From Synergistaceae bacterium (GTDB taxonomy: Bacteria; Synergistota; Synergistia; Synergistales; Aminobacteriaceae): DNA of 64,000 nt. Shown here piece by piece: positions 2,578 through 56,907 of this stretch. Numbering within the stretch: position 1 is the first letter of the stretch; the number at the start of each line of letters is the position of its first letter. The DNA lies in contig JAFSWZ010000028.1 of NCBI GenBank assembly GCA_017450125.1, positions 1 to 64,000 of the forward strand, given 5' to 3'. Both the position numbers and the translations under genes were made by a program. Below the pieces are notes generated by a model that did no database searches, had not been told where the DNA came from, and saw nothing but the letters and a program-made list of their open reading frames with translations.

Positions 2578-3426
2578 TTGGCAGTACTGATGAAGGGGTC
2601 AGAGGTCTCCTCGAGGATGAAGGAGATGCTCCTAGCGAAGGTTGCAGAGCTCAAGAAGGGCGGGAGTTCTCCTGCGCTCGCGATTGTGCGTGTCGGGCAT
2701 CGTGAGGACGACTTGGTCTACGAACGCTCAATCATGAAGCGTTTTGCACCTCTGGGAATCGCTGTGAACGTTCACGAGCTCCCTGAAGACGTAACGCAGG
2801 CAGACTTTGACGCGGAGTTCATGAGGATAAACGATGACGCGGCTGTTCACGGAATACTGCTGTTCCGTCCGTTGCCCAAAGGTCTCAGCGACGAGTACGC
2901 GTGTCTTCACATGAACCACAAGAAGGACATTGACGGAATGAGCCCCGTTAATGCCGCGCGGATTTTTGCGGGTGAACACGAGGGGTTTGCGCCGTGCACG
3001 CCTTCTGCGGTAATGTCTCTGCTTGCGGGTTACGGCTACGACGTTGCGGGGAAGAATGTTGTTATTGTCGGCAGGAGCATGGTAGTCGGACGGCCTCTGT
3101 CGATGCTGATGCTCCGTGCGAACGCTACGGTAACTGTGTGCCACACCAAGACCAGCAGCCTGCCGGAAGTCTGCAGGAGGGCGGACATAGTCATAGCGGC
3201 GGCGGGACACCCGAAGATGCTCACGGCGGAGTACTTCACGAGGAAGAGCGTTGTTGTTGACGTTGGGATTGACGTTGACGAGAACGGGAACTTGTGCGGG
3301 GACGTGGACTTCGAGCGCGTAGAGAAAATCGTTCAGGCGATAAGCCCTGTGCCCGGAGGAGTAGGAGCGGTAACAACGTCAATCTTGGCCGAGAATCTCA
3401 TCAAGGCCGCGAAGATGTTAGGGTAA
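2578..3426 (+). CDS. folD: FolD-family methylenetetrahydrofolate dehydrogenase with degenerate cyclohydrolase site
   Basis: 282 residues. The start is TTG at 2578, 8-10 bases after AGGAGG; an ATG at 2590 is a weaker alternative. The NADP-binding segment (IVGRSMVVGRPLS) and the C-terminal VPGGVGAVTTSIL motif are present, so the dehydrogenase fold looks intact. In the substrate site, canonical members read Y-x-x-x-K; here it is Y48-E-R-S-I52, so the catalytic Lys is Ile. The canonical ILVQLPLP segment reads ILLFRPLP, replacing the conserved Gln with Phe96. The Asp of the KDxDG motif is kept (KDIDG). The predicted role is methylene-THF oxidation or reduction, with FchA supplying the cyclohydrolase step. 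Confidence 0.92.
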   Translation: MAVLMKGSEVSSRMKEMLLAKVAELKKGGSSPALAIVRVGHREDDLVYERSIMKRFAPLGIAVNVHELPEDVTQADFDAEFMRINDDAAVHGILLFRPLPKGLSDEYACLHMNHKKDIDGMSPVNAARIFAGEHEGFAPCTPSAVMSLLAGYGYDVAGKNVVIVGRSMVVGRPLSMLMLRANATVTVCHTKTSSLPEVCRRADIVIAAAGHPKMLTAEYFTRKSVVVDVGIDVDENGNLCGDVDFERVEKIVQAISPVPGGVGAVTTSILAENLIKAAKMLG

Positions 3427-14986: not shown

Positions 14987-15052
14987 TTATAGGACAGATT
15001 CAGTGCGAACTGCGAACTGCGAACTGCGAACATTATACGCACACGCGTTCAT
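14987..15052 (-). CDS. candidate leader ORF through the heptamer array (21 codons)
   Basis: AAGGAGG is followed 9 bases later by ATG (15052). The frame reads M-N-A-C-A-Y-N, enters the four GTTCGCA repeats, and stops at TAA (14987). The TAT-AAT codons are also the -10 hexamer. With 3 or 6 repeats instead of 4 the frame would stay open to a TGA overlapping the ATG of the GT2 gene (ATGA at 14953-14950). It is a hypothesis: the ORF is short, and transcripts from the overlapping promoter would start after its ATG. Confidence 0.3.
   Translation of the reverse strand: MNACAYNVRSSQFAVRTESVL
15004..15031. repeat. tandem heptamer array, 4 perfect copies
   Basis: TGCGAAC repeated four times without error (GTTCGCA on the minus strand). 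It begins at the base after the minus-strand -10 hexamer, so it spans the predicted transcription start and early 5' UTR of the glycosyltransferase block. Confidence 0.95.
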
Positions 15053-15061
15053 CTCTGTCAA
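15032..15061 (-). promoter_or_regulatory. sigma-70 promoter for the glycosyltransferase block
   Basis: TTGACA (15061-15056), 18-base spacer, TATAAT (15037-15032): both hexamers are perfect consensus. It points at the GT2 gene starting at 14953. Confidence 0.7.
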
Positions 15062-32066: not shown

Positions 32067-32462
32067 ATGACGGCAAAACAAGAACGAGCTGTAGAGCTGA
32101 AGAACAGGACGGGCGACGCACACTACAACTGCGCACAGGCAGTAGCATGTGTATTCAGCGAAGAGACGGGAGTAAGTGAAGAGACCATGAAGAAGCTCGG
32201 AGCGGGTTTCGGTCTCGGAATGGGAACTATGGAGGCAACCTGCGGCGCGCTCTGCGGTGCACAGATGGTGCTGGGACTCATGAAGTACGAGGGCAAACCC
32301 ATACGCAAGGACGCTGCGGAACTGTACAAGGCGTTCACGGACAAGTGCGGAGCCTCAATCTGTAAGGAGCTCAAGGGAGTCGGGACAGGGAAGGTATTAT
32401 GTTCCTGCGACGACTGCGTAAGGAATGCAGTAAAAATTTTGGAGGGAATGTTGACGCAATGA
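32067..32462 (+). CDS. C_GCAxxG_C_C-family redox protein
   Basis: 131 residues. It shows the family cysteine pattern: YNCAQAV, then CGALCGAQMVLG, then CGASICKEL and CSCDDCVRNA. Members are small, probably metal- or cluster-binding or redox proteins of anaerobes; no reaction is established. ATG 32067 follows AAAGGGG by 8 bases; in-frame codons further upstream lie in the promoter region. Its stop overlaps the ATG of the small leader ORF (ATGA), and the -35 of the next promoter lies inside its last codons. Confidence 0.85.
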   Translation: MTAKQERAVELKNRTGDAHYNCAQAVACVFSEETGVSEETMKKLGAGFGLGMGTMEATCGALCGAQMVLGLMKYEGKPIRKDAAELYKAFTDKCGASICKELKGVGTGKVLCSCDDCVRNAVKILEGMLTQ

Positions 32463-32479
32463 CAGTATCTGTGTATAAT
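32451..32479 (+). promoter_or_regulatory. sigma-70 promoter for the nitroreductase gene
   Basis: TTGACG (32451-32456), 17-base spacer, TATAAT (32474-32479). The -10 overlaps the first heptamer repeat. Confidence 0.7.
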
Positions 32480-32569
32480 CACGCATCACGCATCACGCAT
32501 CACGCATCACGCCATAACTATGCCCATTCACAGCTGATAATCAGGACTTTCACGGAGGCCGGACAATGA
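32459..32569 (+). CDS. candidate leader ORF crossing the heptamer array (36 codons)
   Basis: ATG 32459 overlaps the previous stop (ATGA). The frame reads M-T-V-S-V-Y-N, runs through all five ATCACGC repeats, and ends at TGA 32567-32569 overlapping the nitroreductase ATG (ATGA). Repeat number changes frame because 7 is not a multiple of 3. GGAGG lies 12 bases upstream. The double ATGA linkage is exact, but the ORF may be fortuitous. Confidence 0.4.
   Translation: MTVSVYNHASRITHHASRHNYAHSQLIIRTFTEAGQ
32478..32512. repeat. tandem heptamer array, 5 perfect copies
   Basis: ATCACGC repeated five times without error. The first copy begins in the last two bases of the TATAAT hexamer, so the array covers the predicted transcription start and early 5' UTR of the nitroreductase gene. 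Confidence 0.95.
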
Positions 32570-56118: not shown

Positions 56119-56147
56119 TTGCTATTTTCTGTGCCAGCCCCTACAAT
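56119..56147 (+). promoter_or_regulatory. sigma-70 promoter for the GT32 gene
   Basis: TTGCTA (56119-56124), 17-base spacer, TACAAT (56142-56147), 36 bases before the GTG start. Confidence 0.6.
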
Positions 56148-56183
56148 AAGCAACACAAATTTTGCGATAAGGAGATGTATGCA

Positions 56184-56907
56184 GTGATACCTAAGGTTAT
56201 ACACTACTGCTGGTTTGGCGGAAAACCTCTGCCCGAACTTGCGCAGAAGTGCCTCGCGAGCTGGGAGAAGTTCTGTCCCGATTATGAGATAGTCCGCTGG
56301 GACGAGAGCAATTTCAACGTGAATTGCTGCGATTACGTGAGAGAGGCCTACGAGGCCAAGAAGTGGGCATTCGTGAGCGACTATGCGCGGCTGAAGGTGT
56401 TAGTTGACAACGGCGGCGTGTATATGGACACAGATGTTGAGGTGATAAAGCCACTCGACGAGTTTCTGGTTCACGAGGCGTTTTCGGGCTTCGAGAGCGA
56501 GAAGGCGATTCCCACCGGCATCATGGCCTGCGAGAAGGGGTTTGCGCCGTTCGCGGAGATGCTGGCGGACTATCACACTAGGCATTTCTACCGACGGGGG
56601 GGGGGGACTAGACCTCACTACTAACGTAACCCTAATCACGAGCTACTTTTCTCGTTACGGCTTCACCCCGAACAACACACTGCAGACAGTCAGAGGCTTC
56701 ACGATTTACCCGAAAGATTACTTCTGCCCAAAGAGCTACCTTACCCTCAAGATCGAGCTTACAGGCAACACGCACACCATTCACCACTTCTCCGGCTCAT
56801 GGCACACGCCCGCCCAAAAACGGTGGATAAGGTTCAAGTGGCGCGTAAGGCAGCTTCTGGGCGAGAGAATCACTGCGTGGCTGAAATCACTCCTCCACCG
56901 TCCATAG
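56184..56907 (+). CDS. GT32-like glycosyltransferase, out of frame at a G11 tract (phase-variable candidate)
   Basis: The start is GTG 56184 (M-I-P-K-V-I-H-Y-C-W-F-G-G), nine bases after AAGGAG and with the usual GT32 opening; ATG 56175 abuts the ribosome site. The first frame has ARLKVLVDNGGVYMDTDVEV with the D-x-D of the family, then reaches 11 G at 56596-56606. It shifts and stops at 56622-56624. The correct C-terminal half continues in another frame (DLTTNVTLITSYF, GFTIYPKDYFCPK, TIHHFSGSWH) to TAG 56905-56907. Ten G would join the two parts into a full protein of about 240 residues. The tail overlaps the next convergent gene by 21 bases. Confidence 0.85.
56596..56606. repeat. G11 homopolymer inside the GT32 gene
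   Basis: Eleven consecutive G between ACC-GAC and ACTAGACC. In the present length the reading frame is broken; 10 (or 13) G restores it. Confidence 0.95.

Follow-up and report, generated by a model that had tools for sequence, protein, structure and literature searches.

A G11 tract splits a GT32-type glycosyltransferase gene in a Synergistota bacterium and marks a probable contingency locus among many G tracts

Introduction

The poly-G phasomes of Helicobacter canadensis and Campylobacter comprise G tracts of about 8–17 nucleotides that act by frame-shift switching, and lie mostly within the frames of glycosyltransferases, methyltransferases and surface proteins, with some tracts in promoters (PMC2823697, PMC8355987). 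The locus described here belongs to a 64,000-nucleotide window, that is, the whole stretch of DNA analysed, from a bacterium of the phylum Synergistota. Its genome resembles the Helicobacter canadensis and Campylobacter phasomes in having G tracts in glycan and surface frames, and some in promoters, and differs from them in phylum and in the presence of MutS. The Synergistota set is further marked by a flank directly 5' of the G residues that unrelated genes have in common, and by off-frame stops in excess just 3' of the tract.

The gene under study is similar to the stand-alone PF04488 (CAZy GT32-type) glycosyltransferases of gut bacteria, with which it shares the DxD motif and the overall architecture, but its native DGS loop is replaced by a G tract. 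Among solved structures, those closest in sequence are glucosyltransferase domains within larger proteins, and the matches to them are distant and local only. Taken singly, this GT32 gene is ordinary; what is new is the tract set together with the shared flank. In the literature searched, which comprised little subscription material and thus provides weak evidence of novelty, we found neither slippage phase variation described for Synergistota nor contingency tracts described as having a conserved flank.

Results

A G11 tract interrupts a GT32-type gene

The original prediction of a GT32-type enzyme with a D-x-D motif in its N-terminal half and an interruption by an 11-G run is borne out (Table 1). 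The N-terminal half matches the Pfam Gly_transf_sug family (PF04488; 6.8e-16, 59.2 bits against a cut-off of 23) and is 73% identical to a gene of a buffalo-rumen Bacillota. Having passed the profile cut-off and possessing the DxD motif, the gene belongs to the GT32-type family and is a predicted sugar transferase. A Pfam search of the C-terminal half returned no match; over its whole length, however, this half can be aligned to the C-terminal portion of 20 intact homologues, and T146, N147, V148, H200, S205 and W206 (numbered as in the first homologue) are nearly invariant in the alignment. The C-terminal blocks TTN, Q, P and HHF-SW are common to the gene and its PF04488 homologues. The proposed gene limits also stand, as GTG 56184 is the best start: homologues begin with MIPK and an AAGGAG lies upstream. 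The gene is a lone one, with a divergent LptA-like gene on one side and a convergent gene on the other.

Dinucleotide shuffles of the window contain 0.02 runs of this kind on average, with one such run in 2 of 100 shuffles, and the second-longest G run in the window has six residues. The sigma-70 promoter that had been assigned to the gene is not distinguishable from chance, with one candidate found against 0.8 ± 0.9 in shuffles. Two heptamer loci of the window, which had also been proposed as switches, do contain repeats, but these are placed in 5' leaders after TATAAT and not within frames. The two loci have the same layout on opposite strands, with different repeat units. Since they lie behind –10 boxes, the heptamers would act on initiation or on the leader rather than on the frame.

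Table 1. Features of the GT32-type locus and of the two heptamer loci (positions in the window)
Feature	Position	Strand	Basis or remark
GT32-type glycosyltransferase gene with a one-base frame offset between its halves	56184..56907	+	homologue alignment, Pfam
Promoter-like TTGCTA-17-TACAAT, 9/12 matches	56119..56147	+	not above chance
Ribosome-binding site AAGGAG, 9 nt 5' of GTG 56184	56169..56174	+	sequence
D-T-D (DxD) motif of the GT-A domain, in YMDTDVEV	56427..56435	+	sequence and PF04488 match
TACCGAC, proximal part of the genus-wide left-flank motif (TAC-N-NA-Y beside the G residues)	56589..56595	+	distal CGTA missing
G11 tract, uninterrupted, proposed slippage site	56596..56606	+	sequence, shuffles
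TAG stop shutting the other wrong frame directly 3' of the tract	56609..56611	+	sequence
TAA stop closing the N-half frame as assembled (OFF product), five codons past the tract	56622..56624	+	
TAG stop of the C-half frame	56905..56907	+	C-half frame open to 56907
Heptamer ×4 in a leader, directly after TTGACA-18-TATAAT (hexamers 15056-15061 and 15032-15037)	15004..15031	-	
Heptamer ×5 in a leader, directly after TTGACG-17-TATAAT (32451-32479)	32478..32512	+	

The tract arose in place in a gene under purifying selection

Homologues from gut Clostridia, Bacteroidales and other bacteria read HF....DGS.D.TTN at the position of the tract, and none of the 29 homologues examined has a G run longer than seven in the gene. 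In the syntenic orthologue of genome G030, within the genus, the native loop is retained, the tract is absent and the frame stays open over 256 codons. In a second genome (G005), an interrupted tract (G6 T G3) occupies the same site behind the same left flank (CATTTCTACCGAC), and the gene is out of frame. The conserved blocks on either side are separated by 27 nt in G030 and by 28 nt in both the window and G005. The one-base frame offset that had been predicted therefore holds, and the tract arose in place and not by insertion of a unit. Accordingly, we rejected the arrival of a ready-made motif-plus-tract unit, as the GT32 orthologues show in-situ replacement with a one-base difference in length. 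Other GT32-type genes of the genus have G11 tracts elsewhere, near the C-terminal part or in the start region (L124 / L200 and L198 of G032), from which it follows that tracts arise independently within one enzyme family.

Both gene halves are under purifying selection: comparison of the window with G005 yields dN/dS values of about 0.06 for the N-terminal half and about 0.11 for the C-terminal half, these ratios being rough because dS is saturated. A long-dead gene would not look so. Permanent inactivation, with the gene decaying as a pseudogene, agrees with the frame being broken both here and in the orthologue of G005 with its interrupted tract; we nevertheless hold it to be highly improbable in view of the strong selection on both halves, the lack of further stops in the C-terminal half, the 35 similar tracts in the genome and the third of coding tracts that are in frame across the genus. 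The locus may have been locked very recently in one strain and, as G6 T G3 of G005 is still out of frame, it can become locked OFF.

G tracts are numerous in the genome and lie mostly in glycan and surface genes

We took for analysis the sequence stretches around all G/C runs of the 2.16-Mb genome to which the window belongs. This genome has 37 G/C runs of at least eight residues, 36 of which are 10–14 long and only one 8–9 long; all genomes used are draft assemblies (43 contigs for that of the window), in which homopolymer lengths may be off by one. The original prediction had counted three possible switches, at least two of them on glycan genes; the glycan targets are upheld, and the number becomes about 36 G-tract candidates.

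Tracts are found in glycosyltransferases (GT2, GT92, GT4 and GT32/Caps_synth), in other glycan genes (EpsG and O-antigen-ligase-like polymerases, two polysaccharide pyruvyl transferases, an NAD epimerase and a UDP-sugar dehydrogenase) and in genes for FkbM and other methyltransferases, short-chain dehydrogenases, a ketosynthase, radical SAM proteins, asparagine-synthase-like proteins and two long FG-GAP proteins. From these predicted functions, whose enrichment was judged by inspection, the tracts are mostly in glycan and surface genes. One array (L020:1994-7066; G000 contig C23, 61-66 kb) contains four G tracts at intervals of about 1 kb. Three of them are in GT2 paralogues arranged in tandem, near the C-terminal end of each, and the fourth is in the O-antigen-ligase-like gene that comes next. 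A further tract gene encodes a type I restriction specificity subunit (HsdS), in which a C13 run lies out of frame and the antisense flank is an exact TACGTAATTCAC (L023:1954-3529; G000 contig C25, ~127.35 kb); this HsdS is a candidate phase-variable methylation system (phasevarion).

Intergenic tracts include Cn runs located, on the C strand, between TTGACA and TATAAT (L013 at about 2990-3030, before a GT2 gene; L032; and L172 of G031). They are candidate promoter-spacing switches, comparable to phase-variable promoters whose –35/–10 spacer contains a homopolymer; the likeness does not extend to the GT32 gene. More intergenic poly-C tracts occur at L226, L233 and L237, and an Rfam search of the intergenic tract loci gave no match.

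Loss of MutS as the cause of the tracts was rejected, as MutS is found in every genus genome searched, including that of the window. The Synergist_CTERM profile has four matches in the window's genome and none in 14 control genomes, which assigns this genome to Synergistota.

Coding tracts bear signatures expected of switching

For statistics on coding tracts we used four genomes of the genus (G000, G031, G032 and G034), choosing the longest open frames at each tract. The G residues are on the sense strand in 61 cases and on the antisense strand in six, and 20 of the 61 coding tracts (one third) are in frame. On the 3' side, the two wrong frames reach a stop after a median of 4 codons, versus 12 at matched positions farther 3' in these frames (P 1e-13), whereas the effect on the 5' side is small (P 0.02). 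We interpret the off-frame stops close to the tracts as selection for a clean OFF state. The excess is absent from G057, a relative from another family with mostly G9 runs. Tract lengths also differ between species: an orthologous GT92 gene has G12 at L010 versus G11 at L202, and the run in an orthologous promoter region, compared in three species, measures C10, C11 and C13.

These signatures bear on whether the broken frame reflects an error of homopolymer length in the assembly, with the gene really ON and the tract one base different. The draft state of the genome, with its 43 contigs, leaves room for such an error, and contig C23 begins within the C13 tract of a GT2 gene (L018:1-13), which indicates that the assembly breaks at tracts and that the true tract count may be higher. 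We consider this explanation very unlikely, because an assembly error could set the exact length but would neither make a tract where homologues lack one nor produce an excess of off-frame stops beside tracts, an excess that argues against sequencing error behind the broken frames in general, and because the G005 assembly has the same frame offset.

Polymerases tend to slip on long G runs, and the two tract-bearing species share the same offset, so that programmed frameshifting or transcriptional slippage could in principle provide both products constitutively from unchanged DNA. This mechanism appears extremely improbable: all three length classes are represented across the genus at the random one-third rate, which is unexpected if one offset were needed, the off-frame stops would waste the product, and the promoter-spacer tracts would be left unexplained.

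Unrelated tracts share a 5' flank

When the flanks of the window's genome are aligned on the tract, the left flank displays a position-locked motif of approximately TACGTAAWWTTACGNAY-Gn. An EM search of the left flanks reached a log-likelihood of 152, against at most 72 in random sets, and of 109 against at most 64 (z 11.7) for the sense-coding tracts alone. The same search on coding tracts was not significant for G034 (z 1.8) and G032 (z 0.4). The motif is thus strong in the window's genome, and in other genomes it is weaker or its spacing differs. On the right flank, EM found no motif, and the excess of TAA and TAG there is due to the off-frame stops.

Species rich in tracts often have the oriented pattern CGTA-N4-16-G9 and seldom its reversed control (39 versus 3 in the window's own genome, sliding matches counted); outside the genus the pattern is nearly absent, with one site in G041. 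Across 12 genomes of the genus there are 19 copies of the exact 12-mer TACGTAATTCAC; nine of them stand directly before G10-13, and the neighbouring genes are unrelated: an asparagine-synthase-like gene, HsdS (antisense), GT92, GT2, another coding gene and an orthologous promoter. The occurrence of TACGTAATTCAC at tracts in three of three instances in the window's genome, along with the 9 of 19 across the genus, led us to reject the motif as a general genomic word. Near-motif sites that lack the preceding T are found in ordinary genes without tracts. The spacing and sequence of the motif vary between species, and so does its frequency, G000, G017 and G023 being rich in it and G015, G019, G020 and G021 poor; it was not found in the order-level relative G057, nor in G070, a poly-G-rich genus of the same family with different flanks. 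In G070 (L241-L260), poly-G runs of 10 up to 55 residues lie in repeated paralogous genes, flanked as GC-Gn-TGAAAAAGACCAAT, and the off-frame stop signature is also absent.

Several intergenic tracts (L013, L172 and L032) read TTGACA-Cn-TATAAT on the C strand, as would be the case if the flank were a –10 promoter box and the tract a promoter spacer. As an account of the shared flank this is unlikely, since a fitting –35 is missing at coding tracts and TAnnnT at many of them, the box would not include the well-conserved distal CGTA, and the motif persists in the sense-coding tracts analysed separately. A –10 box accounts for the intergenic tracts and not for the coding ones. Relative to the G strand, the motif is oriented the same way whether a tract is sense-coding, antisense-coding or intergenic, and the simplest reading of this is a feature of the DNA itself.

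Two further candidates were rejected. A hairpin or palindrome, considered as the core of the flank, shows no excess over base composition (P 0.11), and copying by a reverse transcriptase in a DGR-like manner is contradicted by the absence of RVT_1 from most genomes that bear the motif, among them G003, G005, G012 and G017.

On these data the flank may be any of three things: a selected cis sequence that raises slippage, a sequence recognized by some factor, or a stretch passed between loci when replication switches template within the shared G run. Template switching, in which a nascent strand that ends in a G run anneals to a different tract and is extended there over a short distance, is a tentative possibility: the exact 12-mer lies near unrelated genes, also within single genomes, the differences in motif between species resemble concerted evolution, and the flank of the orthologous GT92 tract has turned over with indels. 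Against it, we saw no direct donor–recipient pair, and a selected cis sequence would look much alike. More speculatively, and in our estimation quite unlikely, the flank would serve as an address by which a genus-specific protein or replication feature seeds G tracts or raises their slippage, such that hypermutability is targeted and does not simply come passively with the repeat; divergence of the flank between species is as expected of a co-evolving recognition pair under this reading.

Discussion

Our data make it highly likely that the GT32-type gene is a contingency locus switched by slippage, OFF in the assembly and one of about 36. A phase-variable enzyme switched OFF at a poly-G tract, as originally predicted, is thus the best reading of the locus, and one that was understated given the genome-wide tracts, the selection, the off-frame stops and the third of coding tracts in frame. 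We infer that tract length varies in the population, with slippage as the cause, and that the enzyme acts on a surface glycan. Slipped-strand mispairing would make the G tract longer or shorter. At one in three of the possible lengths the halves would be joined into a GT32 sugar transferase of about 240 residues (ON), whereas at the others translation would stop 2–5 codons past the tract, and the resulting product would lack the conserved C-terminal half (OFF). The assembled length would correspond to the OFF state, and the approximately 36 G-tract loci would together randomise the cell-surface glycans.

If this reading is right, dozens of G tracts randomise the surface glycans of this genus, and perhaps type I methylation as well, on a scale comparable to that of Campylobacter and Helicobacter. 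The shared flank raises the question of whether bacteria can direct the site at which contingency tracts originate or the rate at which they slip.
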